DNA of 36,937 bases, from the NCBI GenBank assembly GCA_017644185.1, contig JAEPMA010000019.1, forward strand, positions 1 to 36,937, given 5' to 3'. The position numbers and the translations under genes are program-made. The stretch comes from Rhodospirillales bacterium (GTDB taxonomy: Bacteria; Pseudomonadota; Alphaproteobacteria; Rhodospirillales; Casp-alpha2). The notes under the pieces are model-generated. The model was not told the DNA's origin. It saw nothing but the letters and a program-made list of their open reading frames with translations, and ran no database searches. Every line of letters starts with the position of its first letter. The first letter of the stretch is position 1. Positions 1,227-27,462 of the stretch are shown piece by piece.

Positions 1227-2657
1227 TTACCCAGCACAGCAAGAGAGTTTGCTGACATCCTTGTTGAAGGTTTGTGCGGCTAATTTGAGCCCTTCGACTG
1301 TTGTCAGATAAGGAAACAGCGTATCTGCCAGGTCGGTCACGGTCATGCCGCATTTGATTGCCAGGGCAGCGGTCTGAATACTGTCAGCTCCCTCAGGGGC
1401 AAGTATTTGAGCGCCTAGAAGCCGGTCCGTTTTCTTGTCAGCTATCAGCTTGATCAGTCCCCTCGTGTCACGCGCGGCTAGCGCACGAGGGACGTGATCG
1501 AGTGAAATGGTCGACGTGATCACATCATACCTATTGTCCTTGGCAGCGGCCTCCGTAAATCCGACACCCGCTACCTGTGGATCGGAGAATACCACCCAGG
1601 GCATGGCGGAGTTGTCGTACACCAAGCTGTCAAAATTCAAAGCGTTCTTTGCGGCTAGCTTTGCGCCGTATGCCGCCATGTAGACGAACTGGTCGCGATT
1701 GGTCACATCGCCCGCCGCATAGACACCAGGCCTAGATGTGCGCATCCGGTCATCAACGACAATCGCACCGCGTTTGTCCAAGTCGATGCCTGCTTCAGCC
1801 AACCCCAGCCCCTCAGTGTTAGGAGTACGCCCGGTAGCAACCAGCAACTGCTCAGCCTTGAGTTCTAGGAGTGTATCGCCTTCCTTGACGCAGACGGTCA
1901 CGCCCGTCTCATCTTCACGGCAAGCATCATAGGCAATGCCGCAATAGAGCTTCATGCCTTCAGCGCGGAATGCATCTGCCAGCGCGTCCGATATCTCCGG
2001 TTCCACCTGTGGCAGCAAGCGCGAGCGGCAGACCACTGTCACCTGAACACCCATACGGGCCATCATTTGGGCAATCTCCGCACCAATATAGCCACCGCCG
2101 ATGACGATCAGGCTTTCGGGCAGGGTTTCCAACTCCAGTACGGAAGTGCTGGTTAGGTAGTTCACCTCTTCGAGGCCGGGTATCGGCGGCACGGAAGGCC
2201 GTCCACCAGTTGTGATGATGGTCTTTCCTGCGGCAATCGGTGTGTCATTGAGGATGACACCTGCGCCGTTCAGCCGTGCCGCGCCTTCCAGATAGGTGAT
2301 ATTGTTATATTCAGGCAGTAGATCGGCGTACTTCTTCTGCCGCAATGTCATGACGAGGTCGTCCTTGGCGGCGATCAGCTTCCTCCAATCATCCACCCCC
2401 GCTTCTCCGGACAGGCCTGGGAACCGTCCTGCCGCCCTCGCGCCGTGCAACGCTTCGGCTGCACGGATCATCGTCTTGGACGGTACGCAGCCCACATTGA
2501 CGCAAGTGCCACCAATGGTGCCATGACCTATCAGCGCCACATTGGCTCCTTCTTCAGCAGCGGTAATAGCAGCCGAAAAGCCTGCCGACCCCGCGCCGAT
2601 TACAGCGATGTCGTTGGTTGACGTTGATCGTGAGCCCGCGTCGCAGCATTCCGTCAT
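1227..2657 (-). CDS. merA: Mercuric reductase MerA, 476 aa
   Basis: Cytoplasmic flavoprotein disulfide reductase that uses NADPH to reduce Hg(II) to volatile Hg(0). Seen: the FAD-binding GAGSAGF near residues 21-27, the redox-active motif CVNVGCVPSK with C52 and C57, an NADPH-binding GGGYIGAE, and the C-terminal vicinal pair C473-C474 that passes Hg(II) to the active site. It lacks the N-terminal HMA (NmerA) domain found in longer MerA proteins, though a CC pair sits at residues 4-5. The start is ATG 2657, not the longer frame: AGGAGAAC lies just upstream and the ATG overlaps the merF stop as ATGA. Last gene of merTPFA; no merD or merB follows. Confidence 0.96.
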   Translation of the reverse strand: MTECCDAGSRSTSTNDIAVIGAGSAGFSAAITAAEEGANVALIGHGTIGGTCVNVGCVPSKTMIRAAEALHGARAAGRFPGLSGEAGVDDWRKLIAAKDDLVMTLRQKKYADLLPEYNNITYLEGAARLNGAGVILNDTPIAAGKTIITTGGRPSVPPIPGLEEVNYLTSTSVLELETLPESLIVIGGGYIGAEIAQMMARMGVQVTVVCRSRLLPQVEPEISDALADAFRAEGMKLYCGIAYDACREDETGVTVCVKEGDTLLELKAEQLLVATGRTPNTEGLGLAEAGIDLDKRGAIVVDDRMRTSRPGVYAAGDVTNRDQFVYMAAYGAKLAAKNALNFDSLVYDNSAMPWVVFSDPQVAGVGFTEAAAKDNRYDVITSTISLDHVPRALAARDTRGLIKLIADKKTDRLLGAQILAPEGADSIQTAALAIKCGMTVTDLADTLFPYLTTVEGLKLAAQTFNKDVSKLSCCAG

Positions 2658-2905
2658 TTTAAGTTCTCCTCGTTTGTTTGAATATCCGGCTCGCAACAGG
2701 CCACCGCGCGCTGTCGTCGCCACAGACCGTAGACCGTCATGCCCAGGAATGCGGCAAGCGCGGGAAAAAGAACATAGTCCAGCCCGCCGACCCATGCGGA
2801 AAGACCGATCGCGCCGAGCGCAACGACAAGCACAGGCGTGGCACAGCAGATCGCCGCAATGACTGTGCCGACGATGCCTGCCTTGACGATTGTTGCGTCC
2901 TTCAC
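2654..2905 (-). CDS. merF: Mercury transporter MerF, 83 aa
   Basis: Small inner-membrane protein that carries Hg(II) to the cytoplasm for MerA. Two membrane helices are visible, roughly residues 8-36 and 42-62, with the vicinal pair C20-C21 in the first helix (ICCATPVLV) and a second pair C70-C71 near the C-terminus, which is the MerF signature. I chose GTG 2905: it lies five bases after the merP stop, has AAGGA upstream, and gives a length close to the usual 81 residues; the longer ATG frame would overlap merP by 50-odd bases. Its stop overlaps the merA start. Confidence 0.88.
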   Translation of the reverse strand: MKDATIVKAGIVGTVIAAICCATPVLVVALGAIGLSAWVGGLDYVLFPALAAFLGMTVYGLWRRQRAVACCEPDIQTNEENLK

Positions 2906-2909
2906 TGGG

Positions 2910-3242
2910 TCATCCTTGGACCGATGCCGGATAGCCAACATTTGTGGACGCTGCGGCGATGGCATCGGAAGTTGTGATGGATGGGTCGAAAACGACTATC
3001 GCCGTTTTAGTATCGAAGTCGACGGTTACCGACTTGACACCGGGAACACCTTCCATTGCCTTCTTGACGGTGACCGGGCACAGCGCGCAGGTCATGTTTT
3101 CAATCGAAAATGTGGCAGTTTGGGCGGCAGCAACTTGCATAGTCACATACTGTGCCGTAGCAGGTGTAACGCCATTGCCGGTCATCCAGGCAAGCCCGCC
3201 AAGGGTCAGCAAGGCCACTGCCAAAATAGGCAATCGTTTCAT
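2910..3242 (-). CDS. merP: Periplasmic mercury-binding protein MerP, 110 aa
   Basis: Periplasmic HMA-fold protein that captures Hg(II) and hands it to MerT. A signal peptide occupies about residues 1-30; the metal site is NMTCALC with C52 and C55, followed by a normal HMA fold ending near residue 108. Start ATG 3242 is preceded by GGAGAACCTC. At 110 residues it is longer than the classical 91-residue MerP because of an extended linker after the signal sequence. It sits between merT and merF with gaps of 23 and 4 bases. Confidence 0.93.
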   Translation of the reverse strand: MKRLPILAVALLTLGGLAWMTGNGVTPATAQYVTMQVAAAQTATFSIENMTCALCPVTVKKAMEGVPGVKSVTVDFDTKTAIVVFDPSITTSDAIAAASTNVGYPASVQG

Positions 3243-3265
3243 GAGAGGTTCTCCGTAGATTGCAG

Positions 3266-3664
3266 TTAGTATAGGAATGGCGCCCACCAATCGATGGTCA
3301 GTGCGAGCAGGACCACGACCGTCGAGATCCAGAGCGCTGTCTTGGTGATGGTGGACGATTGCGGCTTGGCGCAGTAACCGTCGACATCACATGCAGAACC
3401 GGCCTTAAAGTAAACTTGCCGGAAACCGAGACCTATAAAGACGAGCGCGAGACTGGCGAAAACAGGTTTGTATGGCTCAAGCGCGGTTAAGCTGCCGATC
3501 CACGCACCAGAGATACCCAGCATCACAAATAGCAGCGGCACGATGCAGCAACTCGAGGCAAGAATGGCACCGATCACGCCGCCAGACGTGAAGATTGACT
3601 GCTTGCGATCGCCCTGCGCCTCACGGGCCTGTAAGGCACGGGTTTCTGTTTCCGTAGTGCTCAC
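3266..3664 (-). CDS. merT: Mercuric transport protein MerT, 132 aa
   Basis: Inner-membrane Hg(II) importer. Three membrane segments are visible near residues 28-48, 65-85 and 108-125. C39-C40 lie in the first helix (SSCCIVPLL) and C92/C98 lie in the loop after helix two; these are the cysteines that relay Hg(II) in the family. The start is GTG 3664 with GAGGAC upstream. The N-terminal 22 residues are longer and more polar than in Tn21 MerT. First gene of the operon, reading from the divergent MerR-controlled promoter. Confidence 0.93.
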   Translation of the reverse strand: MSTTETETRALQAREAQGDRKQSIFTSGGVIGAILASSCCIVPLLFVMLGISGAWIGSLTALEPYKPVFASLALVFIGLGFRQVYFKAGSACDVDGYCAKPQSSTITKTALWISTVVVLLALTIDWWAPFLY

Positions 3665-3695
3665 GAATTAACGTCCTCGCTTTTGTTCCAGTAAC

Positions 3696-3726
3696 AAGGT
3701 AAGGTCTGTAGTAACTACAGACTCAA
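3696..3726 (-). promoter_or_regulatory. MerR operator/promoter for merTPFA
   Basis: On the minus strand a -35 TTGAGT (3726-3721) and a -10 TACCTT (3701-3696) are separated by 19 bp, the over-long spacer typical of MerR-activated promoters. A perfect 9+1+9 palindrome, GTCTGTAGT-A-ACTACAGAC, fills 3704-3722. It lies between merT and merR, so MerR should repress its own gene and activate merT in Hg(II). Confidence 0.85.
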
Positions 3727-3739
3727 GAGAGTTTTTTCG

Positions 3740-4153
3740 ATGAGTGATCACAGATCTGCGAAGGGAATGAAACGCGCCGAACTCGCGCGGCAAACTGGCT
3801 GCAACCTGGAGACGATCCGGTACTACGAGAAGATCGGCATGATGCCCGACCCGCCACGCATGGCGTCCGGCTACCGTGTATATGATGAAACCCATGTGGC
3901 ACGCCTGCGCTTTATTCTGCGTGGCCGCGAGCTGGGGTTCTCCATCGAAGAAATACGCGGTCTCTTGAGCTTGGTTGACCGAGGCACCCAGACTTGCGCC
4001 GAGGTACAAGCGTTAACCGAACGGCACCTTGCTGACGTACGGACCAAGATTGCTGATCTCAAGCGCATAGAAAAAGTGCTGGCCGATACGGCAGCGCAAT
4101 GCTCGGGTGCGGAGGTGCCGGAGTGTCCCGTGTTGGAGGCGCTGGCATCGTGA
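3740..4153 (+). CDS. merR: Mercury-responsive regulator MerR, 137 aa
   Basis: Dimeric DNA-binding activator/repressor of the divergent merTPFA operon. The N-terminal winged helix-turn-helix includes [10 protein letters not shown] (residues 24-33), followed by a long dimerisation helix. The three Hg(II)-binding cysteines are present as C86, C121 and C129; the first interval of 35 residues equals that of Tn501 MerR and the second is one residue shorter. Start ATG 3740 follows AGAGAG. Its stop overlaps the GTG of the ynfA-like pseudogene, so the two formed one short operon. Confidence 0.93.
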
Positions 4154-4479
4154 TTGGTACGGTTTCCGTCTACGTCGGGGCTGCCATCGCGGAAATTGCC
4201 GGTTGCTTCGCTTTCTGGGCCTGGCTGCGCTTAGGTAAGTCGCCATGGTGGCTCGTGCCCGGCATGGTCAGTCTGGCTCTGTTCGCGTTCCTTCTGACCC
4301 GCGTTGACAGTGACCTTGCTGGGCGTGCTTACGCCGCCTAAGGCGGAATTTACATTGCCGCGTCAATTCTGTGGCTCTGGTTAGTAGAAACGCGAACACC
4401 CGATCGATGGGATCTAGTCGGCGCGACTATCTGTCTCCTGGGAGCAGCGATTATCCTTTGGGGGCCGCGGGGAACTTAG
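4150..4479 (+). pseudogene. YnfA-family (UPF0060) membrane protein gene broken by one in-frame stop
   Basis: Read from GTG 4150 (overlapping the merR stop as GTGA), the frame gives a YnfA-like protein of 109 codons, matching the family's usual 108 residues. It has four membrane segments, [16 protein letters not shown] near the start and [11 protein letters not shown] in the second. The frame is interrupted by TAA at 4339-4341, exactly where the conserved Tyr of the family's AAYGG motif belongs; afterwards GGIYIAAS and ILWLWLVE continue in the same frame to TAG 4477. A single substitution of TAC or TAT explains it. YnfA proteins are small SMR-like membrane proteins of unclear role. Either a recent inactivation or a sequencing error. 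Confidence 0.82.
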
Positions 4480-4997: not shown

Positions 4998-5351
4998 TTA
5001 AGCGGCTTTTTGTTTAATTTGAATTTGAATATTCGCAGCTATTATGAGCGTAACGAAATGAATAGCGGCCTTGCTCCAAAATGAAATGATCAACCCTTCC
5101 ACCAAGTGAAACGTAGCGAAAACTATGATGACAGGCATGATGATAGGAACTCGAGCAACAAGGCCCCATATAAGGGCAGCAACAATGAGAATTGAGACAT
5201 AGATATTAAAGGCTCGGTAAGAACCCCACTCAAACGAAATTACATCAGGCGCCCATCCAAAAGCGTTGTAAACCAGAACGCTTGATGCGCACGCGGCAAA
5301 CATGGCCTGCAGGATTATAAGGGATACAAGTTGCCATCTCTTGATGATCAT
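4998..5351 (-). CDS. Small integral membrane protein of unknown function, 117 aa
   Basis: I do not recognise a named family. Four membrane segments are visible at about residues 7-29, 50-66, 69-90 and 94-110, with a short basic N-terminus and a Lys-rich tail. Possible metal ligands are sparse: C21 in the first helix, H82 and H98. Start ATG 5351 has AGAGG about ten bases upstream. It lies 55 bases downstream of the YPC-type ATPase in the same direction, so it probably ends that operon, perhaps as an accessory subunit. Codon use and composition are somewhat more AT-rich than in the ATPase. Confidence 0.65.
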   Translation of the reverse strand: MIIKRWQLVSLIILQAMFAACASSVLVYNAFGWAPDVISFEWGSYRAFNIYVSILIVAALIWGLVARVPIIMPVIIVFATFHLVEGLIISFWSKAAIHFVTLIIAANIQIQIKQKAA

Positions 5352-5406: not shown

Positions 5407-7854
5407 TTACGTGTTGCCTGTTCTTGAAACCGGTTTCCCAACGCTAAGTATCGCGTCGATGAACAGTCTCGGCTTGCCCCAGAGCGAGTTGACGAAAATG
5501 GTCGTCACACTTGCGGCCATGGCGACCATAGCCCAGACAGGGTAAAGCAATCCCGTCGCGGCGACGGGGACGCCAACGCCATTGAACAGGAAGGCGAGCG
5601 ACACGTTCTGCAGCATCTTGCGGTACCCTTGCCGACTGATTTCCCGCGCTTCGACGACGTTCGAGATGTCGTTGTTGAGAATGATGATATCGGCAGCGTC
5701 GATGGCGATGTCGGTGCCCGCGCCCATGGCGATGCCCACATCCGCCTGCATGAGCGCAGGTGCATCGTTGATGCCGTCACCGACCATGGCGGTTCGGCCT
5801 TGCCGCTGAAGATCGCGGATCAGTTCGGCTTTCTCGCCGGGCAGCACTTCTGCGTGAACGACGTCGATGCCGAGTTCCTTGGCGATATTATACCCTGCGC
5901 GTTCGTTGTCGCCGGTAATCAGAACCGTTCTTATACCCGCGTCACGTAATTTGGCGATCGTCGTTCCGGCTTCCCGCCGCGGCAAGTCTCCCAAGGCAAC
6001 GATCCCGAGAAGTACACCGCCATGAGCGACTGCGATTACCGTCCGTCCCAGCTCCTGTAAGGCTTCGATCCGGTGGGCGAGCGAAGCAAGATCGATGTCA
6101 TTCTGCGAGAGGAACCGTGGGCTTCCCACGATCACGTCTTTGCCGTCGACTGCGGCGATCACACCCTTACCGGGAACCGCTTCGAACGTATCGGTGTCCG
6201 GCGGCGTCACTCCTGCATCGAAGGCCGCTTCCACGATGGCTTCGCCGAGTGGGTGCTCCGAGACCGATTCCGCCGCGGCAGCATATATCAGAACTTGATT
6301 TGCATCTCCCGATACGGCTTCCACCTCGTGAACCCGGGGGCGGCCCTCGGTCAGCGTGCCGGTTTTGTCGAAGGCAATCTGCCGGACCAGACGGTAACCC
6401 TGGAACGCTTCTCCCGTCCGCATCAGGATGCCTTTTTCCGCCGCCTCGCCTGCACCCCTAACAATTGACAATGGTGCGGAGATGCCGACTGCGCAGGGAT
6501 AGCCCATGACGAGTACGCTAAGGCCCGCGAAAACCGCACGTTGCAGGTCGGGTGTGAAACCGAACACTTGCGGCAATGCCGCCCAGCCGATGAAAGAGAG
6601 GATCGAGATCGTCAGGACGGCCGGTGTGTAAACCTGTAGAACGCGGTCAACCAGATGCAAAAGACCGGGTTTGAGGGCACGGGCATCTTCGACCTCGCGC
6701 GCAACACGGCGGAGAAAACTCTGATCGCCGACAGCAGTGACCCGGACCAGCAAAGTCCCGTTGCCATTAATCGTGCCGCCGATCACGGCATCGCCGATCT
6801 TTCGTTCAACGGGCATCGGTTCGCCGGTAACGAGGGATTGATCCACGGTAGAACGGCCGTCGATGATTTCACCATCCACCGGCAGGCGGTCGCCAGGCCG
6901 CACCCTCACCAGATCGTCTTCGACAATCTCGCTTGTCGGGATTTCGATTTCGGCACCGTCGCGTTGCACGCGCGCGATATCCGGCTGCAGATCGAGCAGT
7001 CTTTTGACGGCCTGTGACGACCGTGTTTTGACGATCAGCGACAGCCATTCTGAAAAAATGTGATACGTCGCGACCATGACGGCAACGGCGAAGAAGGGCG
7101 CCGTCGGATAATCGGATTGGCCGAGGATCAAACCGATAGTACCTCCGGCCAGCCCGGCAAATGCCCCGGCCTCAAGCAGTACGTGCTGGTTCAATATCCC
7201 CCGTCGAAGGGCCTGAACAGCCATAATCAGAATGTGACGGGCAATACCGAAAACAAGAACGACGGCAAGCATCCCTACGATCCATGGCGTGAAGGCGGTC
7301 AGTGCTCCGGTATCTTTCAGTACGAGTAACCCGGTCACCAAGACGCCGAGGCCCCCGGCGCCGATGAGTGCTGGCCATAACCCGCGCGCCCGAAGAACGA
7401 GAAAAACGAAGGCGATCAAACTGAGCGTTGCTATCGTGGGAAGGATCAGCGAGAGCGGCCCGGCCGGCTCGGTAATCAATGCGACGGATAGAAGGCTGAA
7501 TACGGTAGCTGTCAGGAAGCGGCGGCCCTCGACGACGAGTTCACGCTCTTCCTCTTCAAAAGGCCGCAATTTGTTTGGGTCGTGAACGGTGTAACCGATG
7601 TCGCGTAAAATCTGCAATAACCCCTCCGGCGTGGTCGCCGACGGGTCAAATTCGACAAGCGCCTGTTCGTGGGTCAGGCTAACCGCGACTTTATCCACGC
7701 CGGTTTGCTTGCCGAGTGCTTTCTCGATCGTGCCCGTGCAAAGCGAGCAATGGAGGCCGCCGATACGCGCACGAATACGTGCCCGGCCGGGGCGCTCCGC
7801 CGGTTCTTCCTTCCAGTACGTCGATGTCGGTTCGTCGGCGGTTATCGCGGTCAT
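5407..7854 (-). CDS. Heavy-metal P1B-type ATPase with atypical YPC motif, 815 aa
   Basis: Metal-exporting ATPase of the inner membrane. Domains in order: an HMA domain at about 25-95 with GLHCSLC (C36, C39); a membrane region with about six hydrophobic stretches (112-275); actuator domain with TGEP at 343-346; the transport-site helix with GYPCAVGIS, Y452-P453-C454 replacing the usual CPC; phosphorylation motif DKTGT with D496; SEHPLGEA in the nucleotide-binding domain; GDGINDAP hinge; and two C-terminal helices. Typical P1B enzymes have four helices before the actuator, so two extra are likely. Start ATG 7854 follows GGAG. Cargo is uncertain; the HMA-bearing MerR regulator upstream suggests a thiophilic ion such as Hg, Cd or Pb. 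Confidence 0.88.
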   Translation of the reverse strand: MTAITADEPTSTYWKEEPAERPGRARIRARIGGLHCSLCTGTIEKALGKQTGVDKVAVSLTHEQALVEFDPSATTPEGLLQILRDIGYTVHDPNKLRPFEEEERELVVEGRRFLTATVFSLLSVALITEPAGPLSLILPTIATLSLIAFVFLVLRARGLWPALIGAGGLGVLVTGLLVLKDTGALTAFTPWIVGMLAVVLVFGIARHILIMAVQALRRGILNQHVLLEAGAFAGLAGGTIGLILGQSDYPTAPFFAVAVMVATYHIFSEWLSLIVKTRSSQAVKRLLDLQPDIARVQRDGAEIEIPTSEIVEDDLVRVRPGDRLPVDGEIIDGRSTVDQSLVTGEPMPVERKIGDAVIGGTINGNGTLLVRVTAVGDQSFLRRVAREVEDARALKPGLLHLVDRVLQVYTPAVLTISILSFIGWAALPQVFGFTPDLQRAVFAGLSVLVMGYPCAVGISAPLSIVRGAGEAAEKGILMRTGEAFQGYRLVRQIAFDKTGTLTEGRPRVHEVEAVSGDANQVLIYAAAAESVSEHPLGEAIVEAAFDAGVTPPDTDTFEAVPGKGVIAAVDGKDVIVGSPRFLSQNDIDLASLAHRIEALQELGRTVIAVAHGGVLLGIVALGDLPRREAGTTIAKLRDAGIRTVLITGDNERAGYNIAKELGIDVVHAEVLPGEKAELIRDLQRQGRTAMVGDGINDAPALMQADVGIAMGAGTDIAIDAADIIILNNDISNVVEAREISRQGYRKMLQNVSLAFLFNGVGVPVAATGLLYPVWAMVAMAASVTTIFVNSLWGKPRLFIDAILSVGKPVSRTGNT

Positions 7855-7884
7855 GATATATACTCCGTAAAAATCTCAAACCGA

Positions 7885-8568
7885 TCAGCCGGCGGAAGTG
7901 CCCGCTTTCAGATCGGCAAACAGGCCGAACCAGATCGACCATCCGCCGAGTGCAATGAGGACCAGACCGGCTAATGCTGGATATCGGCCGGAGAGAGTTG
8001 CAATACGCTCAAGCCAGCCACGTGCGCGTGGGACGAGAACGGCCACCACCAACGGGATGCTTAATCCAAGGCCGAAAACAGCGAGCGCGATGAAGCCCTT
8101 TGCTACCGTCGCGCCGGAGGAAGCGGCGGCTGCTGCCAACAATGCGAGCAACAACGGTGCCGCGCAGGCAGGGATGTTGAATCCGAACAGGAGGCCGAGG
8201 CCAACGGATCCACGGTATCCGCTAAGTCGACGAAGTCCTGGCCCGATTGAACGCGTGAAAAAGCGTAACTGTCCGGTCGCGAGCAATATCCCGAGAAGAA
8301 CATACAATGTCCCTAAACCCAGCCATGCATGTCGCTGCAGGTCGAGAAACATGTCTCCGATGAGCACGGCGAGAACCCCGAGCAAACCGATGAATACCGA
8401 CCGGGTCGCGGCGAAAACGGCTGTCTCTAAGACCTTCACCGACGGATCTTTGCCTTCAAGGTATTTTATGAAGACGAGGCTGGAGCCGATCGTGCACGGT
8501 TCAATGAACCCAAAAAGGCCCAACCCGGCAGGAATAGCGACCAGTCCAATAAACCCGGTTTCGATCAT
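7885..8568 (-). CDS. CcdA/DsbD-like membrane thiol-reductant carrier, 227 aa
   Basis: Polytopic membrane protein of the CcdA/DsbD beta-domain superfamily, which moves electrons from cytoplasmic thioredoxin across the membrane through two cysteines. Seen: about six hydrophobic helices, and the two hallmark sites FIEPCTIGSS with C25 and NIPACAAPLL with C135, arranged as an internal pseudo-repeat. Start ATG 8568 overlaps the stop of the MerR-HMA gene (ATGA) and the ATPase gene follows after 30 bases, so the three are one operon. It is not beside any cytochrome gene here. It may keep the HMA cysteines reduced or act as a metal permease; both are inference. Confidence 0.82.
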   Translation of the reverse strand: MIETGFIGLVAIPAGLGLFGFIEPCTIGSSLVFIKYLEGKDPSVKVLETAVFAATRSVFIGLLGVLAVLIGDMFLDLQRHAWLGLGTLYVLLGILLATGQLRFFTRSIGPGLRRLSGYRGSVGLGLLFGFNIPACAAPLLLALLAAAAASSGATVAKGFIALAVFGLGLSIPLVVAVLVPRARGWLERIATLSGRYPALAGLVLIALGGWSIWFGLFADLKAGTSAG

Positions 8569-9236
8569 TGATCATTGATTGCGGCAACGAACCCGCCCTT
8601 GTCGATTGCCGTAACCAGATCTTCCTTCGAGGCCGTATCGGGATCGTGCAGAACACGAGCCTGGCGCTCGGCATAGGAGGCATCGACCTTGCGGACACCC
8701 GGCACTCGGGTGAGCAATAGTTCGATCGTGTGGGCGCAGCCGTCACAGTGCATACCTTCGATATTCAGGAGAGTGGTTTTCATGTCTGGCGCATCCTTTC
8801 CTTCAGGCTGTGCTTCATTGCGGGTCACGCCGCTGTGTAAAGCGCGGTTGTTCATGGCGTCGATGATGGTGCAGGCGGTAATTTCGCCGCCACCAGGACA
8901 ACTTGCGACGAGATCATCTAGCGCGTCGAGAATGAGCCGCATGTGGTTAATCTTCGACTGGACTTGGTCTCGTTTCTGGACTGCGCGGGCCCTGATGTCC
9001 GCGCAATCCGCCTTGGGGTCAGCCTGTAGGGATAGAAGCTCGGAAATTTCCCGAAGTGAAAAGCCGATTTCCTGTGCTTGGCGTACAAAGCGTATGCGGT
9101 CCACCGTCGCCATCGGATAATCGCGAAATCCGCCGCCTTGTGGTTTACGCGGTTGATCGATTAGTCCCTTGGACTCGTAAAACCGGATCGTTTCGACGCT
9201 GACTCCGGCGCGTGTGGCGGCTTCACCAATTCGCAT
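8565..9236 (-). CDS. MerR-family regulator fused to a C-terminal HMA domain, 223 aa
   Basis: Transcription factor with an N-terminal winged helix (ETIRFYESKG, 15-24), a dimer helix and the metal-loop cysteines C78, C113 and C122. Their 35- and 9-residue spacing equals that of Tn501 MerR, pointing to Hg or a similar soft metal. After a linker at about 130-151 comes a complete HMA domain (152-220) with GMHCDGC, C164 and C167. MerR proteins normally end near 135-145 residues, so the HMA is an added sensor or metal-delivery domain. It is first in an operon with the CcdA-like protein and the ATPase, behind its own MerR-type promoter. Confidence 0.9.
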   Translation of the reverse strand: MRIGEAATRAGVSVETIRFYESKGLIDQPRKPQGGGFRDYPMATVDRIRFVRQAQEIGFSLREISELLSLQADPKADCADIRARAVQKRDQVQSKINHMRLILDALDDLVASCPGGGEITACTIIDAMNNRALHSGVTRNEAQPEGKDAPDMKTTLLNIEGMHCDGCAHTIELLLTRVPGVRKVDASYAERQARVLHDPDTASKEDLVTAIDKGGFVAAINDQ

Positions 9237-9257: not shown

Positions 9258-9289
9258 AGGCTAGCAGCCGTAGTATACTACGGAGTCAA
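9258..9289 (-). promoter_or_regulatory. MerR-type operator/promoter of the MerR-HMA operon
   Basis: On the minus strand a consensus -35 TTGACT (9289-9284) is followed after 20 bp by -10 TAGCCT (9263-9258). The spacer begins with the perfect 16-base palindrome CCGTAGTATACTACGG (9268-9283), very close to the mer operator core. It lies just upstream of the MerR-HMA gene, so this regulator probably controls its own operon rather than a divergent one. Confidence 0.82.
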
Positions 9290-9538: not shown

Positions 9539-9982
9539 TCACCGTTCCTTCGGTGTTGAATGATCATCCGTTTCGCAAAGACTGTGATCACTCAGCACCT
9601 CTAAAACGCGGCAATCTGCGATCCGTCCGCCCCGGCACTGCTCGATCATGCGTTCCAGTTCATGGCGAAGTGCATGCAATCGATGGATACGGCGGTCTAC
9701 CTCGCTGAGTTGCGCCTTCGCAATTGCGTCCGCGGCATCGCACGGCTGATTAGGGTCGTCCGAGAGACTGATCAAGTCTCGGATTGCCTGCAGTGGGAAC
9801 CCGAGCTCTCGGGCATGACGAATGAACGTCAAACGGTGGATGGCTGAGTCATCGTAAACGCGCTGGTTTCCACTTGAGCGGGGCGGTGCCGGGATGAGGC
9901 CGATCTGCTCGTAGTATCGGACCGTCTGCACCTTGCAACCAGCGGCCTCGGCAATGCGGCCAATCGTCAAATCGTGGGCCAA
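9539..9982 (-). CDS. MerR-family metal regulator (CadR/ZntR/PbrR type), 147 aa
   Basis: Metal-responsive activator with winged helix QTVRYYEQIG (19-28), dimer helix, and three metal-site cysteines C81, C116 and C124. The short CRGGRIADC loop is like those of Cd/Pb/Zn-sensing members; an extra C136 followed by a His/Asp-containing tail (HSTPKER end) resembles CadR-type C-terminal extensions. It is transcribed away from the CDF transporter, and the operator between them (9996-10026) has the expected 19 bp spacer. Substrate cannot be fixed from sequence; Cd, Pb or Zn are likely. Confidence 0.86.
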   Translation of the reverse strand: MAHDLTIGRIAEAAGCKVQTVRYYEQIGLIPAPPRSSGNQRVYDDSAIHRLTFIRHARELGFPLQAIRDLISLSDDPNQPCDAADAIAKAQLSEVDRRIHRLHALRHELERMIEQCRGGRIADCRVLEVLSDHSLCETDDHSTPKER

Positions 9983-9995
9983 AGCAAATTACCTC

Positions 9996-10026
9996 TTGAA
10001 CCTATAGTTACTGTAGACATTACGTT
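9996..10026 (+). promoter_or_regulatory. MerR-type operator/promoter of the CDF-lspA-dsb-sco operon
   Basis: A -35 TTGAAC (9996-10001) and -10 TACGTT (10021-10026) are 19 bp apart. Between them CTATAGT and ACTGTAG (10002-10015) form a dyad with one mismatch per arm. Its position means the longer open frame beginning at 9974 cannot be the true start of the transporter gene. Confidence 0.8.
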
Positions 10027-10066
10027 TAGCACATCTGAGATGAACCGCGGAATAAAAGGGTGTGCC

Positions 10067-10705
10067 ATGGCCGGAGGATGTTGCAGTCACGAACCGAAGT
10101 TCGATGGGATGTCGAAAGGCTTCAAACGCGCTCTATGGGCAGTAATCGCGATTAACGGTACCATGTTTTTCGTCGAAATGGCCGCAGGTGCGTTAGCCGG
10201 GTCTCAGGCGTTGAAGGCGGATGCTCTGGATTTCCTGGGCGACACGGTCACGTATGCCATTAGTCTTATGGTAATCGGCATGTCGCTTAAAGTCCGCGCC
10301 ACGGCGGCTTTGGCCAAAGGAATCAGCCTTGCGGCCATGGGGTTCTGGGTCTTCGGCATGACTGCTTATCAGGTTTTGATCCTCGGTGTACCGAGTGCAC
10401 CGATAATGGGCGGCATCGGCGTACTTGCCCTCGCTGCCAACCTATTGAGCGTTCTTATCCTGATGCGTTTCAAGGACGGAGACGCGAACGTTCGCTCCGT
10501 ATGGCTGTGTAGCCGTAACGACGCGATTGGCAACGTCGCCGTAATCGTGGCAGCTGGCGGGGTATATCTGACCGGGACCGCGTGGCCCGACCTGATCGTG
10601 GCCGGATTGATGGCGGGTCTGTTTCTCTGGTCATCTTTGCAGATCATCAAACAGGCTTTGGATGAGCGGCGCCATGTCGGGGCGCATGGTATCGCTGCTG
10701 AATAA
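10067..10705 (+). CDS. Cation diffusion facilitator (CDF) family transporter, 212 aa
   Basis: Inner-membrane proton-driven divalent metal exporter. Six membrane helices fill most of the chain. Transport-site acidic residues appear in helix two as DFLGD (D55, D59) and in helix five as NDAIGN (D152, N156). The N-terminus carries a GGCCSH metal-ligand cluster. The usual cytoplasmic C-terminal domain is absent; the chain ends soon after helix six, as in short CDF proteins paired with MerR regulators. I chose ATG 10067 because AAAAGGG lies six bases before it; ATG 10040 is possible. First gene of the operon, 27 bases before lspA. Confidence 0.85.
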   Translation: MAGGCCSHEPKFDGMSKGFKRALWAVIAINGTMFFVEMAAGALAGSQALKADALDFLGDTVTYAISLMVIGMSLKVRATAALAKGISLAAMGFWVFGMTAYQVLILGVPSAPIMGGIGVLALAANLLSVLILMRFKDGDANVRSVWLCSRNDAIGNVAVIVAAGGVYLTGTAWPDLIVAGLMAGLFLWSSLQIIKQALDERRHVGAHGIAAE

Positions 10706-10732
10706 CAACCCTGGAGCCGAGGAAATTCGTTA

Positions 10733-11293
10733 GTGACGTACGGAGTGCCCCCTTTGCGTCGGAATAAAGCGGCATCAGATTTGTTCTCGCAAACGTGTGC
10801 GCGCTCAACCTCGATAGTTGTTGTCTCGTCGGTCATGGTGGCCGCGATCGTGTTCGACCAGGCAACCAAATGGGCTGCACTTACGTTCCTATCAACACCG
10901 TCCTATAAAGTGGAGGTTACCCCATTTTTTGATCTCAGTTTAGGCTTCAATACAGGAGTCAGTTTTGGTGTTTTTGCCGATATTTTCGGCGATCAGCAAT
11001 GGCCGTTGATTGCGATTACCTTTGCCATCGCTTCAGCCCTCGCCGTTTGGGCGTTACGTTCGGACCGCCTACTCGAAGCAGGGGCGATTGCACTCATGGC
11101 AGGCGGTGCATTCGGGAACATCATTGATCGAGTACGACAAGGCGCGGTTACAGATTTCCTCGACTTTCATGCGATGGGATTTCATTGGCCCGCTTTCAAC
11201 TTTGCGGACGTGTTTATTTGCGCTGGCGCTGCATCGCTCGTTGCCATTTCCGTCACGTCAACAGCGGGCGTAGGCACCAAAGATGACGAGTGA
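10733..11293 (+). CDS. lspA: Lipoprotein signal peptidase LspA, 186 aa
   Basis: Inner-membrane aspartyl protease that removes signal peptides from prolipoproteins. Four membrane helices are visible. Family landmarks are FDQATKWAA near 41-49, GFNTGVSFG at 71-79, GNIIDR with catalytic D132 and FNFADVFI with catalytic D159. Start is GTG 10733 with GAGGA upstream; the N-terminal 25 residues are longer and more polar than in housekeeping LspA. LspA copies within metal-resistance operons, next to cadmium/zinc exporters and MerR regulators, are common; the lipoprotein substrate here is not known. Overlaps the next gene by 11 bases. Confidence 0.93.
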   Translation: MTYGVPPLRRNKAASDLFSQTCARSTSIVVVSSVMVAAIVFDQATKWAALTFLSTPSYKVEVTPFFDLSLGFNTGVSFGVFADIFGDQQWPLIAITFAIASALAVWALRSDRLLEAGAIALMAGGAFGNIIDRVRQGAVTDFLDFHAMGFHWPAFNFADVFICAGAASLVAISVTSTAGVGTKDDE

Positions 11294-11741
11294 GGAGATG
11301 TTCCGTAAGCGGGCCACGACAATGATATCGCCGGACAATGCATTGATCGGCGCCTGGCTGATCGCCCTGGCGGCCACCTTGGGTGCTTTGTTCATCGGGG
11401 AGGTCATGGGACGCCCCCCATGCGTTCTATGTTGGTACCAGAGGATCGCAATGTTCCCCTTAGCCGTTGTTCTCGGTATTGCGTGTTATCAGTCGGACCT
11501 CAATGTGCGCCGCTATGCACTCCCATTAGCCATTGCGGGAGGCTCAATAGCGTTTTGGCACAGTCTGCTTTTTGCCGGGTTTATCGCGGAGGCGATACAA
11601 CCTTGCACGCAGCATGGCCCCTCCTGCTCCGGAGAAGACCAGGTCGTTTTCGGATATTTACCGCTTCCGTATCTCTCGTTGGCCGCATTCTGTTTGATTT
11701 CACTCTTGTTGTTTCTGTCTACGGAAAAGGGACGAAAATGA
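11283..11741 (+). CDS. DsbB/BdbC-type disulfide bond oxidoreductase, 152 aa
   Basis: Four-helix membrane protein that re-oxidises a periplasmic DsbA partner and passes electrons to quinone. Active-site pairs are C47/C50 in RPPCVLCWYQR and C108/C115 in the second periplasmic loop (QPCTQHGPSC). Length and spacing fit the BdbC branch better than enteric DsbB. Start is uncertain: ATG 11283 overlaps lspA; ATG 11298 and 11322 are alternatives. Its stop overlaps the start of the DsbA-like gene, supporting a DsbB-DsbA pair. Confidence 0.9.
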   Translation: MTSEEMFRKRATTMISPDNALIGAWLIALAATLGALFIGEVMGRPPCVLCWYQRIAMFPLAVVLGIACYQSDLNVRRYALPLAIAGGSIAFWHSLLFAGFIAEAIQPCTQHGPSCSGEDQVVFGYLPLPYLSLAAFCLISLLLFLSTEKGRK

Positions 11742-12382
11742 ATCGTCGTCATTTTATCGCACAAATTGGGATAGCGATTTTGGGCATTTTTGGGTTCGGC
11801 GTATACCTCTATCAACCCTTAGTCGAGAATATGAGAAAGGTAGCACCAGTTACAAATGCCGCCCAATTGGTCCGCGACCATTCACCTGTATTTGGCCCTA
11901 AAGATGCCCCGGTCACCATTGTTGAGTTTTTTGACCCGGCGTGCGAATCGTGCCGCGCCTTTCATCCGATCGTCAAAAACATAATGGCAACGTACCCTGA
12001 CAAGGTCCGCGTGGTAATCCGATATGCCGCATTCCACCCCCCGTCAGAGGACGCAGTGCGACTTCTCGAGGCCGCTCGCTTGCAAGGGAAATTCGAACCC
12101 GCCCTTGAGCGTCTTTTGGAAACGCAACCGAAGTGGGCACCGCACGGACGTGCCCCAGAAGACATATGGAGTTTGCTCGACGGGACTGGAGTGGACATAG
12201 AACGCGCGCAACGTGAAAGCCGGATGCCGCACATCGTCGGCGTGCTCAATCAAGACGCCGAAGACATCAAGGCGTTTGGGGTACGCGGAACGCCAACGTT
12301 TTTCGTTAACGGAAAAGCACTGGACTCTTTTGGTGAGGCGCAGTTGCGCGATCTCGTCCGATCCGAAGTGGAGGCATTGTGA
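11738..12382 (+). CDS. DsbA-family thiol:disulfide oxidoreductase, 214 aa
   Basis: Periplasmic thioredoxin-fold protein held by an N-terminal membrane anchor (residues 7-26). The active site is PACESC with C69 and C72, within a DsbA/DsbG-like chain that starts VFGPKDAPVTIVEFFD; the cis-proline region is RGTPTFFVNG near the C-terminus. Start ATG 11738 overlaps the DsbB-like stop (ATGA) after AAAAGGGACG, and its own stop overlaps the next gene (GTGA). It likely oxidises or isomerises Cys-rich secreted proteins encoded nearby, such as Sco. Confidence 0.9.
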   Translation: MNRRHFIAQIGIAILGIFGFGVYLYQPLVENMRKVAPVTNAAQLVRDHSPVFGPKDAPVTIVEFFDPACESCRAFHPIVKNIMATYPDKVRVVIRYAAFHPPSEDAVRLLEAARLQGKFEPALERLLETQPKWAPHGRAPEDIWSLLDGTGVDIERAQRESRMPHIVGVLNQDAEDIKAFGVRGTPTFFVNGKALDSFGEAQLRDLVRSEVEAL

Positions 12383-24877: not shown

Positions 24878-25600
24878 TCAGAACATCAGCCGAAGACCAG
24901 CAACGAAAAACAGGCCGTCGCCCTCTTCACCTTCCTCTTGTCTCAAATCCAAGGTATCGCCGAAGACCCGTTCGTAATGCACACCGATGTACGGCGCGAC
25001 GGAGCGGTCTACGAGATCGTAGCTGAGGCGGGCGCCCACTTCCAATTTCGGCCCCCATGCCTTGACTTCGGCATCGAGGTTATCTCGGAGAGGCACATCC
25101 AGCTCGATACTCGGCGTCAGGATCAGGTAGTTCGTGATCAGGGCTTCGTATTCGACCTCAAACCTGGCCGATGGCCGGTCCGAAACAAAGAGATCCGCAT
25201 CGACCTCGAACCACTGCGGGGCCAGGCCGTGCAGGCCTACCACGCCATGAACACGGTCTCGGCCATCGGGCGTATCAAACCGAACACCGGCAACGGCATC
25301 AAAGAAAGTGGAGATCGGTTTCTGCAGACGCAACTGCGTCTCCATGGTTTCCAGCCGCTCGCTTCGCGTCTGAAACTCCCCTTCGCTGCGAACGACGAAC
25401 TTCAGTTCGTCTGTTCCGATCAGGGCATCGCCATCCCACGCCATAACGTCTGACTGAGCGTCACCGGTAAACCGGTTCTCGAATTGCTCAACCTGGACAC
25501 CCCAGATCAACTGTTCTTCGGCAGCTATGACTGTCGAAGGCACCATTGCACCAACGGAGCACAGGATAAGAAAACGCGATATTTGGTTCTTCATCTTCAT
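24878..25600 (-). CDS. copB: CopB-like outer-membrane copper resistance protein, 240 aa
   Basis: Outer-membrane beta-barrel of the CopB/PcoB family. Signal peptide at about 1-25 (ending VIAAEE), then WGVQVEQFENRF, and alternating barrel strands ending LFFVAGLRLMF with a terminal aromatic, as expected for a barrel. I chose ATG 25600, which overlaps the copA stop as ATGA. The Met/His-rich N-terminal tract of many CopB proteins is missing, which makes this a short member. Co-transcribed with copA. Confidence 0.9.
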   Translation of the reverse strand: MKMKNQISRFLILCSVGAMVPSTVIAAEEQLIWGVQVEQFENRFTGDAQSDVMAWDGDALIGTDELKFVVRSEGEFQTRSERLETMETQLRLQKPISTFFDAVAGVRFDTPDGRDRVHGVVGLHGLAPQWFEVDADLFVSDRPSARFEVEYEALITNYLILTPSIELDVPLRDNLDAEVKAWGPKLEVGARLSYDLVDRSVAPYIGVHYERVFGDTLDLRQEEGEEGDGLFFVAGLRLMF

Positions 25601-27462
25601 CCCTCTACTGAGCTCGGTTTTGCGGATGTCGACTTCGGACCACCTTCGACAATTACCTTTCGGAACATGCCACCGCCAGCGTGATACGAGAGGTGACAGT
25701 GGAATGCCCATTGTCCCGGCGCATCGACTTCAGTTTCGGTGTAAACGGTGGTTCCCGGTGCAACACTCACCGTGTGCTTGATGGGGTCCCACTTCCCGTT
25801 ACCGTTATCAAGGATCGACCACATTCCGTGAAGATGCATTGGGTGTGTCATCATCGTCTCGTTCACGAATTTGAACCGCACTCGTTCACCGTACTGAAGG
25901 ACAATCGGATCAGCATCTTCGTACTTCACGCCGTTTATTGACCAGATATAACGCTCCATGTTGCCGGTCAGTCGTAATTCTATTTCGCGTGTCGCCTCCC
26001 GGTCTTCGTACAAAGGCTTTTGGGCCTTCAGATCGCTGTATGACAGAAATTTCCCGCCATCGGCAGCCGAAGGCACCAAACCACTACCGGACGCGTAGAA
26101 AGCATCATCCTTCTTCGCCTCACCTGCCATGTTGCTGTGGTCCATGCCGGCCATCTTGCTGTGGTCCATGCCCGCCATCTTACTTTGGTCCGCACCAGCC
26201 ATGTTGCTGTGGTCCATGCCGGCCATCTTACTCTGGTCCGCGCCCGCCATGTTGCTGTGGTCCATGCCGGCCATCTTACTCTGGTCCGCGCCCGCCATGT
26301 TGCTGTGGTCCATACCGGCCATCTTACTCTGGTCCGCGCCAGCCATGTTGCCGTGGTCCATACCAGACATCTTGCCATGGTCCATGCCGGCCATGTTGCC
26401 GTGGTCCATGCCCATATCCGCCATGGTCAACCGCGGAACTTCTCGAAGGTCCGGCTCTTCGGCCACCATTCCCTCTGTTGGGGCGAGAGTTGCCCGCACG
26501 CTCGCGGTCCGACCCATCGACTCAGCAAATACTGCATATGCCTTGTCCTCGTCGGCCTTCACGATCACATCGTAAGTTTCCGCAACGCCGATACGAAACT
26601 CGTCAACTGTAATCGGTTGAACATTGTTCCCGTCAGCCTGCACCACGGTCATCTTGAGACCCGGAATGCGTATATCGAAGTAAGTCATGGCAGATGAATT
26701 GATGAACCGTAGCCTCACACGCTCACCAGGTTTGAAGATGCCGGTCCAGTTTTGTGAGGAAGATTTTCCGTTGATAAGAGGTGTAAAACCCTGCACATCC
26801 TCAATGTCTCTCGGCATCATCCGCATATCGCCCCACATCATGCGGTCATCGATTGTTGCACCGAGGCCTTTCTCTTTCGCCTCTGCAATAAAATCCAAAA
26901 TCGTCTCTTGTTTGCGATTGTAATAATCGGCAGATCTCTTCAGATTTCTCATGATCCGGCTGCCGGAATGCGGGTGTGCATCCGTCAGTTGAACCACGTA
27001 CTCTCTGTCGTAGCGGAACGGTTCGCGTTTTTTCGGCTCGATTATAATCGAGCCGTATGCTCCGTCAGGCTCCTGGAAGCCGGTGTGGCTGTGAAACCAG
27101 TATGTTCCACTCTGCACAATGGGAAACCGGTATGTGAAGGTCTCGCCAGGATCGATCCCGTCATAGCTGATCCCCGGCACGCCGTCCTGCTGATATGGAA
27201 GAATAAGTCCATGCCAATGGATCGAAGTGGACTCATCCAGGTTATTGGTAACATTGATCGTTACGTCTTCACCCTCTTTAAACCGAAGAACCGGTCCGGG
27301 GGTCTTGCCGTTGTACCCGATACCAGTACGGGTGAAGTCACCAGTATCGATCTTAACACGGTCGACGGAGAGAGAGTACTCAGCGGCCCCGGCAGCACCT
27401 GAGCTCAACACGAGTAGGCTCAATCCGACGACGCCAGCATTCAGTAAGCTTAAGCGCAACAT
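25597..27462 (-). CDS. copA: Copper resistance multicopper oxidase CopA, 621 aa
   Basis: Periplasmic multicopper oxidase. Copper sites: HWHGL (H82, H84), FHSHTG (H124, H126), HPMHLH (H540, H543, H545) and HCHLSYHAGGGM (H588, C589, H590, H594, M599). Residues 351-447 form a repeat tract of twelve eight-residue units, mainly GMDHSNMA and GADQSKMA. The signal sequence (1-26) looks Sec-type, without the twin-arginine motif usual for PcoA/CopA. Start ATG 27462 has AGGAG six bases upstream. Overlaps copB. Confidence 0.95.
   Translation of the reverse strand: MLRLSLLNAGVVGLSLLVLSSGAAGAAEYSLSVDRVKIDTGDFTRTGIGYNGKTPGPVLRFKEGEDVTINVTNNLDESTSIHWHGLILPYQQDGVPGISYDGIDPGETFTYRFPIVQSGTYWFHSHTGFQEPDGAYGSIIIEPKKREPFRYDREYVVQLTDAHPHSGSRIMRNLKRSADYYNRKQETILDFIAEAKEKGLGATIDDRMMWGDMRMMPRDIEDVQGFTPLINGKSSSQNWTGIFKPGERVRLRFINSSAMTYFDIRIPGLKMTVVQADGNNVQPITVDEFRIGVAETYDVIVKADEDKAYAVFAESMGRTASVRATLAPTEGMVAEEPDLREVPRLTMADMGMDHGNMAGMDHGKMSGMDHGNMAGADQSKMAGMDHSNMAGADQSKMAGMDHSNMAGADQSKMAGMDHSNMAGADQSKMAGMDHSKMAGMDHSNMAGEAKKDDAFYASGSGLVPSAADGGKFLSYSDLKAQKPLYEDREATREIELRLTGNMERYIWSINGVKYEDADPIVLQYGERVRFKFVNETMMTHPMHLHGMWSILDNGNGKWDPIKHTVSVAPGTTVYTETEVDAPGQWAFHCHLSYHAGGGMFRKVIVEGGPKSTSAKPSSVEG
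26122..26412 (-). repeat. 24-bp tandem repeats coding for a Met/His tract in CopA
   Basis: Twelve units of 24 bp plus one codon encode residues 351-447. Within the tract a 48-bp double unit (one MDH unit and one ADQ unit) recurs about four times with near-identical bases, so the array has grown by recent duplication. Unit number is likely to differ between strains. MDH units offer Met and His ligands; ADQ units lack the His. Confidence 0.92.

Follow-up and report, generated by a model that had tools for sequence, protein, structure and literature searches.

What does an operon export, and under whose control, when a MerR-type regulator carrying its own HMA domain is followed by a CcdA-like membrane protein and by a P1B-type ATPase whose metal-binding motif reads YPC? 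The operon lies at positions 5407-9236 of contig JAEPMA010000019.1 of a Rhodospirillales bacterium (assembly GCA_017644185.1); the whole contig of 36,937 bases was analysed (hereafter 'the window'), and the host genome comprises 4.16 Mb. An earlier first-pass annotation of this DNA had proposed that metal export and cysteine reduction are coupled here. The reading preferred here, at a probability of roughly 0.5, is that MerR here drives the export of a soft metal, mercury as Hg(II) or in organic form being the likeliest, and that a CcdA-like protein with two cysteines assists. The genes, the clade, its signature, the operator sequence and the neighbourhood are established by the analysis; the cargo, the direction of transport, the ligands and the role of the CcdA-like protein are what we infer.

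The three genes form a tight operon on the minus strand, transcribed in the order MerR-HMA regulator, CcdA-like protein, ATPase. The regulator and CcdA-like reading frames overlap by 4 bases, the spacing between the CcdA-like and ATPase genes is 30 bases, and the genes were placed as the first-pass annotation had claimed. The features of the operon are as follows.

9268..9289, minus strand: mer-type -35 element and operator, TTGACT-CCGTA-GTATAC-TACGG (motif scan; no second exact site in the genome)
9258..9263, minus strand: putative -10 element, TAGCCT; its 20-bp spacing from the -35 element recurs in related loci (tentative assignment)
8565..9236, minus strand: MerR-family regulator with a C-terminal HMA domain, 223 amino acids (hidden Markov model (HMM) and Pfam matches, cysteine pattern)
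8589..8768, minus strand: HMA domain of the regulator, residues 157-216, GMHCDGC (Pfam)
7885..8568, minus strand: CcdA-like membrane protein of 'type A' (IEPC...IPAC), 227 amino acids (profile match, cysteines, model)
8494-8496, minus strand: Cys25 of the CcdA-like protein
8164-8166, minus strand: Cys135 of the CcdA-like protein
5407..7854, minus strand: P1B ATPase of the YPC clade, 815 amino acids, ten membrane helices modelled (HMM, Pfam, alignment, tree, model)
7588..7767, minus strand: HMA domain of the ATPase, residues 30-89, GLHCSLC (Pfam, alignment)
7390..7560, minus strand: two additional N-terminal helices, residues 99-155 (AlphaFold2 model, insert length)
6493..6501, minus strand: Tyr452-Pro453-Cys454 in helix M4 of the ATPase (sequence, alignment)

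A small membrane open reading frame (ORF) downstream of the ATPase gene (4998-5351), which had been described as a four-helix member of the operon, was not counted in the module because it lies outside 5407-9236 and no relatives were found in the plasmid collection, in a further 288 genomes of the class or among ORFs from the loci compared. It was rejected as a module member and is regarded as an orphan in the collections searched.

The general features of a P1B pump were all found in the ATPase: the Pfam domains HMA, E1-E2_ATPase and Hydrolase, a phosphorylation domain with DKTGT, an x-P-C motif in M4, a TIGR01525 score of 542.5 bits (cut-off 346.25) and the fold, the best-ranking solved structures being ATP7B and CopA. 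Both NCBIfam subfamily cut-offs were exceeded, that for copper (443.9 versus 397) as well as that for cadmium (378.9 versus 313.5). The Y-P-C reported in place of CPC was verified as GYPCAVGI (encoded at 6482-6510), a pattern found in none of 100 shuffles. Matches to the YPC pattern were found in at least 117 stretches of genome contigs, with Actinomycetota, Chloroflexi, Proteobacteria and several groups of archaea among the taxa in their titles, and the exact pattern had no match in the viral collection. YPC loci L030-L146 had been selected with V[M/L]GYPCAxG[I/M], which fixed columns 449-458 and left the other signature columns free. Eleven plasmid pump relatives fetched by homology without the motif (hand-chosen among 626 records counted, 40 of them named; ten via the pump query and L027 via the CcdA query) all carried GYPCA together with the HMA motif G[LM][HS]CS[LF]C. 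The controls were 59 loci picked by hand among the top-scoring matches of a search of 398 genomes, all from Pseudomonadota; two candidates were scored per genome, and at least two YPC pumps (own genome and G729) were recognised among the 398.

In a tree of 96 YPC pumps of at least 720 amino acids and 59 control pumps (58 CPC, 1 CPD), built by a quick method that raised a flag on four long rows, three from YPC pumps, all 96 YPC rows stood together on one side of a branch with a Shimodaira-Hasegawa-like approximate likelihood ratio support (SH-aLRT) of 100; the tree covered these YPC and control rows alone. Judged by the aligned sequences, the branch fails those P1B motifs that are checkable in print. 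The CPC, YN and MxxSS of P1B-1 were replaced as detailed below, and YPC stands where P1B-3 has CPH in M4 (PMC5552934). The YPC pumps are a widespread and apparently uncharacterised P1B branch. No description of them or of the MerR-CcdA-YPC trio was found in the literature searched, which lacked the main P1B classification paper and 'PIB' spellings, so an earlier description may exist. The 'FUPA' families of TCDB may already contain the branch.

In the alignment of the 96 YPC and 59 control pumps, the substitutions formed a coherent set. The ACPC of controls in M4 was GYPC in 96/96 YPC pumps, YN in M5 became FN (Phe in 91/96, against Tyr in 59/59 controls), and MxxSS in M6 became MxxSV, the second Ser being Val in 89/96 (Ser in 59/59 controls). 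An entry-region Met and a Glu, each present in 59/59 controls, were replaced by Gln223 in 95/96 and Ser272 in 88/96 YPC pumps, respectively. Conversely, His265 was found in 96/96 YPC pumps (Ile/Val at the same column in controls), His224 in 94/96, Glu228 in 87/96 and a new Met776 in M6 in 92/96, while the columns of C454, N758, M779, S782 and D403 were retained. Ten residues have been named for the Cu+ path of AfCopA, in which mutation of CPC, YN or MxxSS residues impaired copper binding (PMC9433437). Five of these ten positions were changed in the YPC clade (M>Q, E>S, CPC>YPC, YN>FN and MxxSS>MxxSV) if, as we read the alignment of YPC and control pumps, M158 and E205 of AfCopA are the counterparts of the Met and Glu columns. 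A branch that extends from archaea to Pseudomonadota with half of the described copper-path residues replaced constitutes a natural experiment on P1B metal selectivity.

The suggestion of two extra N-terminal helices in the window ATPase was supported by an AlphaFold2 model made from a 61-sequence alignment (mean predicted local distance difference test score (pLDDT) 84.3, predicted template modelling score (pTM) 0.76). Six helices were modelled ahead of the A-domain, followed by M3, M4 (broken at Y452-P453-C454), M5 and M6, giving ten instead of the usual eight; the additional ones (99-127 and 133-155) preceded MA, MB, M1 and M2. The length between HMA and A-domain was bimodal among YPC pumps, with 182-329 residues in 57/96 (nearly all approximately 190) and 135-150 in 39/96, compared with 130-155 in controls, with two exceptions. 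Simple hydropathy counting gave too noisy a signal to reveal the extra helices on its own. At one locus (L149:11001-12675) the YPC pump gene of G105 was seen as two overlapping shorter frames, other copies being intact.

Mercury is favoured as the cargo by the regulation of the operon and by some of its neighbours. The regulator, with the Pfam domains MerR_1, MerR-DNA-bind and HMA, had its best match, among the NCBIfam families listed, to the mercury MerR model TIGR02051 (124.8 bits, compared with 91.3 for the CadR-PbrR model). Its cysteines C82, C117 and C126, the last two spaced by 9 residues, are arranged as in mercury MerR (aligned to that of L023), where we take them to be the functional ones. 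Among 11 MerR-HMA proteins (including two near-copy pairs), the distal two of these cysteines were present in 11/11 and the first in 10/11. The regulator promoter reads TTGACT-CCGTAGTATACTACGG (9289 to 9268), with a palindrome that matches or is close to the proteobacterial MerR signal TCCGTAC-(4)-GTACGGA and is unlike the CueR, HmrR and ZntR signals (PMC1526738). By its sequence this is a mer operator in an over-long promoter, with a spacer of 20 and not the proteobacterial 19.

The own genome contained one exact operator and five further sites with two mismatches, a total of 6, against 6 for a reversed-pattern control. With one mismatch allowed in the -35 element and one in the palindrome, 45 sites were found in 27/132 YPC loci, 1 in the 59 controls and 3 in shuffled bases (the shuffle preserving single-base content only); some palindromes enter the 45 twice, once per strand, and adjoining mer genes account for the L023 and L124 sites and for two of the L022 sites. 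After deduplication, an operator stood no more than 150 bp ahead of a hit gene in 19/54 Pseudomonadota loci. In one of them, L124, this gene is merT of a neighbouring mer operon; in the remaining 18/54 it encodes a regulator, pump, CcdA-like or HMA protein. In seven loci (L022, L033, L046, L061, L129, L135 and L148) it was located ahead of the pump or CcdA-like gene. Across 38 deduplicated sites, the -10 element began with [TC]A at spacer 20 in 31 and ended with T in 34, and TAnnnT at spacer 19 occurred in 2/38, which are the mer promoters of L023 and L124.

Genes for MerA, MerT or MerB were present within 6 kb in 8/50 Pseudomonadota YPC loci (the window, L020, L021, L066, L081, L098, L122 and L124) and in 0/59 controls, or in 11/54 with the loci from the CcdA query. 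Out of ten chosen MerA-like neighbours from several phyla, 8 passed the MerA cut-off, and the other 2, which are truncated, matched only mercury reductase models (E<=1e-60); out of five more proteins, 3 passed, whereas that of L019 (317.2 against a cut-off of 454.45) and the second L081 oxidoreductase failed. An oxidoreductase of this MerA/glutathione-reductase-like kind, below both cut-offs, recurs near YPC pumps (L019:10180-11520 and L081:4835-6172) and could be a further partner. The window has a mer cluster of its own (1227-4153), consisting of merA, merP and merT (1227-3664) and a divergent MerR gene; its operator-like dyad, TCTGTAGT..ACTACAGA, is unlike the mer-type operator of the YPC operon. 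A UPF0060/YnfA-like fragment (4099-4341) overlaps the end of the mer regulator gene, and YnfA-like genes were also seen near YPC pumps in L029 and L146.

The conserved neighbourhood that the first-pass annotation had set as a test was found. MerR-CcdA-YPC trios recurred in other loci, and a CcdA-like gene was present within 6 kb of the pump in 30/50 Pseudomonadota YPC loci (window included) versus 2/59 controls (Fisher p=3.5e-11). The neighbour HMMs were built from plasmid and window loci, and after removal of the 7 of the 50 loci used for HMM building the frequency was 23/43. Six near-duplicates were dropped, as were, for the main neighbour test, four CcdA-query loci; L038 was excluded, its pump gene being fragmented. 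Phylum labels were taken by us from record titles. YPC flanks were shorter than control flanks (5.5 kb versus 11.1 kb in total), a bias that works against the neighbourhood finding. Across 126 deduplicated YPC loci, a CcdA-like gene scoring at least 40 bits occurred within 6 kb in 43, including 34/54 from Pseudomonadota, and 47/47 CcdA-like genes counted in these loci were on the same strand as the pump. L025 gave one weak CcdA HMM match (29 bits), and no CcdA was annotated in two haloarchaeal loci and a Deinococcus locus. When the search was reversed, with the window CcdA-like protein as query, relatives were found in 9/385 genomes of the class (own genome included); the four at 61-70% identity (G380, G135, G053 and G105) all adjoined a YPC pump, whereas the four at 38-43% identity had none within the stretch fetched. 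One of the latter (L150) and a Roseibium plasmid (L028) carried a CcdA-like gene of the window type beside merA and merT, again with no pump in the fetched stretch.

MerR genes as such were not enriched (36/50 YPC loci versus 39/59 controls). Enrichment in the same 50 and 59 loci was seen for MFS transporters (15 versus 0), HMA proteins (37 versus 18), mini-thioredoxins (10 versus 1), MerA-like proteins (7 versus 0, the one of L019 being under the MerA cut-off) and MerT (5 versus 0). A protein of approximately 500 amino acids with no Pfam match, encoded between the CcdA-like gene and the pump in L027 (6676-8196), also recurs near YPC pumps; its relatives are in L052/L154, L105/L149 and L111, making 6 loci, about 4 of them independent.

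The window CcdA-like protein had no Pfam match and a weak NCBIfam match (TsoB, E=0.00025), and as a lone query it retrieved no CcdA among PDB sequences, but a 15-sequence profile of the family matched the solved CcdA 5vkv (E=1e-6). Because Foldseek with the modelled structure gave no match at E<=0.001, the family assignment rests on the profile match and the cysteines. C25 and C135, in an EPC motif of the first and a PAC motif of the fourth membrane segment, were invariant in the 15 aligned members, and the model shows helices broken at EPC and PAC, with one cysteine in each. By homology and model, the protein has the structural hallmarks of CcdA, namely two membrane cysteines in broken helices, and thiol carriage would be its probable activity. 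Other CcdA-like branches were found beside YPC pumps, of which one, devoid of the first cysteine, shows CPxC in its fourth segment and in most cases adjoins a mini-thioredoxin, another bears CPC in the first segment with no later motif, and yet another has CPAC late only. A partner from the CcdA superfamily thus seems to have been recruited more than once, and the types beside YPC pumps need not all share one redox role. The first-pass interpretation is partly supported: the neighbourhood is conserved and the ATPase branch departs from the P1B motifs compared, and cysteine reduction on behalf of the pump would be a plausible function.

In the preferred reading, a MerR-HMA dimer would sit on the CCGTA-N6-TACGG dyad inside the over-long 20-bp promoter, and binding of a soft metal by the three core cysteines would activate the promoter and hence the operon itself, by the established MerR mechanism. 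The pump could be loaded from HMA domains, whether its own (G[LM][HS]CS[LF]C-like), that of the regulator or those of small HMA proteins. The metal would pass the conserved membrane C454 and the candidate ligands N758, M776, M779, S782 and H265 and would be released outside the cytoplasm. The cargo would most likely be Hg(II) or an organomercurial, the pump backing up MerA, and the CcdA-like protein most likely would carry reducing equivalents through the membrane, so that thiols that handle the metal stay reduced, or might itself pass metal. Several observations weigh against this reading. The regulator score lies under the MerR(Hg) cut-off of 150.85; the operator was absent from 33/54 Pseudomonadota YPC loci (12 of the 54 having less than 5 kb of flank), and the mini-thioredoxin clusters of L020, L021 and L023 had no such operator for the pump. 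No mer gene was present within 6 kb in 42/50 YPC loci, and outside Pseudomonadota a CcdA-like neighbour was found in 9/72 loci, plus 3 weak matches. Copper, CDF and other metal genes share the island. Finally, just one intramembrane cysteine is conserved in YPC pumps, which is ill suited to two-thiolate Hg(II); speculatively, a cargo bound through one thiolate, for example an organomercurial cation, would be the better fit.

Export of Cu(I), Ag(I) or Au(I) by a P1B-1 variant, with Tyr and a second M6 Met in place of the first CPC cysteine, is considered unlikely. ATP7B and CopA are the closest solved relatives, the NCBIfam copper cut-off was passed, the C454, N758, M779, S782 and D403 columns are retained and copper genes lie in the same island; yet the cadmium cut-off was passed as well, the operator differs from the CueR/HmrR signal, and half of the described copper path is replaced throughout the clade, including the CPC, YN and MxxSS residues whose mutation in AfCopA impaired copper binding (PMC9433437). 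MerR sensors with three cysteines also serve lead and cadmium. An exporter of Cd, Zn or Pb would resemble Mesorhizobium CadA, behind which a ccdA gene is likewise induced by zinc and cadmium (PMC3668242), but that pump is termed PIB-2 in a cited title, the operator here is unlike the ZntR signal (in a comparison without a CadR/PbrR signal) and the regulator scores lower with the CadR-PbrR than with the MerR model, and we regard this alternative as rather improbable.

For the CcdA-like protein, a function as metal or organometal permease and not as thiol carrier, as held for ArsG, is a somewhat doubtful but serious candidate. ArsG is given as an efflux transporter (PMC9144182), actinomycete CcdA/TrxA proteins are tabulated as 'mercury transporter' (PMC12195606), two CcdA-like types lack the first CcdA cysteine and have CPxC later, and the type B partner in L021, beside a mini-thioredoxin that matches the MJ0307 and MTH895/ArsE models below cut-off, matches ArsG (NF040495) with 57.8 bits against a cut-off of 200. 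The window protein, however, gave no match to ArsG NF040495, and with one cysteine in each of two broken helices it is like CcdA. That the genes are chance neighbours in a metal island, without any functional link, would agree with the dense metal-gene contig and is very hard to reconcile with the 4-base overlap and 30-base gap, the co-direction of all CcdA neighbours counted, their excess over controls and the adjoining pump of each of the four closest CcdA-like relatives.

Beyond the mercury exporter preferred for the window, one may tentatively extend the proposal to the whole branch: YPC pumps could be a P1B class that serves mercury or organomercury exclusively and provides mer resistance with an export arm driven by ATP; this class is switched by MerR-HMA at mer-type promoters, has a single-Cys plus His/Met path and has recruited CcdA-family partners several times. 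If the cargo is mercury, resistance could include ATP-driven efflux and not MerA reduction alone, and, through the pairing with CcdA-like proteins, the notion of redox-assisted metal export that was raised earlier for Mesorhizobium becomes open to test.

Elsewhere in the window, a MerR/CDF divergon followed by LspA, DsbB-like and DsbA-like genes (9539-12382) forms a further metal and thiol neighbourhood. A multicopper-oxidase-like ORF, judged by eye, has a repeated Met/His-rich MDHSNMAGADQSKMAG stretch (25597-27462), and a second, canonical CcdA with SPC/TPC motifs and Pfam DsbD_TM is encoded close to the contig end (36015-36752).

Among known systems, P1B-1 Cu+-ATPases (CopA, ATP7B) share with YPC pumps the overall fold, HMA, DKTGT, the second M4 Cys, the M5 N and the M6 M and first S, and differ in having CPC, YN, MxxSS, the entry Met and the Glu where YPC pumps have YPC, FN, MxxSV, Q and S; H224, E228, H265 and M776 are additions of the YPC pumps, and the two helices of the window subclade. 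The CcdA/DsbD family (5vkv) shares with the window protein two broken helices with one Cys each and the profile match, whereas the window protein has IEPC/IPAC motifs, no Pfam detection and no significant Foldseek match. ArsEFG (Chen et al. 2019, via PMC9144182) has a mini-thioredoxin and a CcdA-like protein in common with the type B clusters, but handles arsenicals, and the type B partner scores well short of the ArsG cut-off. Pairing of a pump with CcdA has already been considered in print: Zn and Cd each induced cadA and the following ccdA in two Mesorhizobium strains, for which metal binding or reducing power for the pump was proposed (PMC3668242). An adjacent P1B pump and ccdA are common to both systems, the metal co-induction being a Mesorhizobium observation; the Mesorhizobium pump is set apart by description and not by sequence, as a Zn/Cd-induced CadA called PIB-2 in a cited title. 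In a mer survey (PMC8261052), a term search of the main text gave neither 'ATPase' nor 'CcdA'. Tn501-type mer operons (MerR/merOP) share the operator palindrome, the regulator cysteine pattern and, in some loci, the nearby mer genes, while in the window the spacer is 20 bp and not 19, the regulator is fused to HMA and the output is a P1B pump with a CcdA-like protein.

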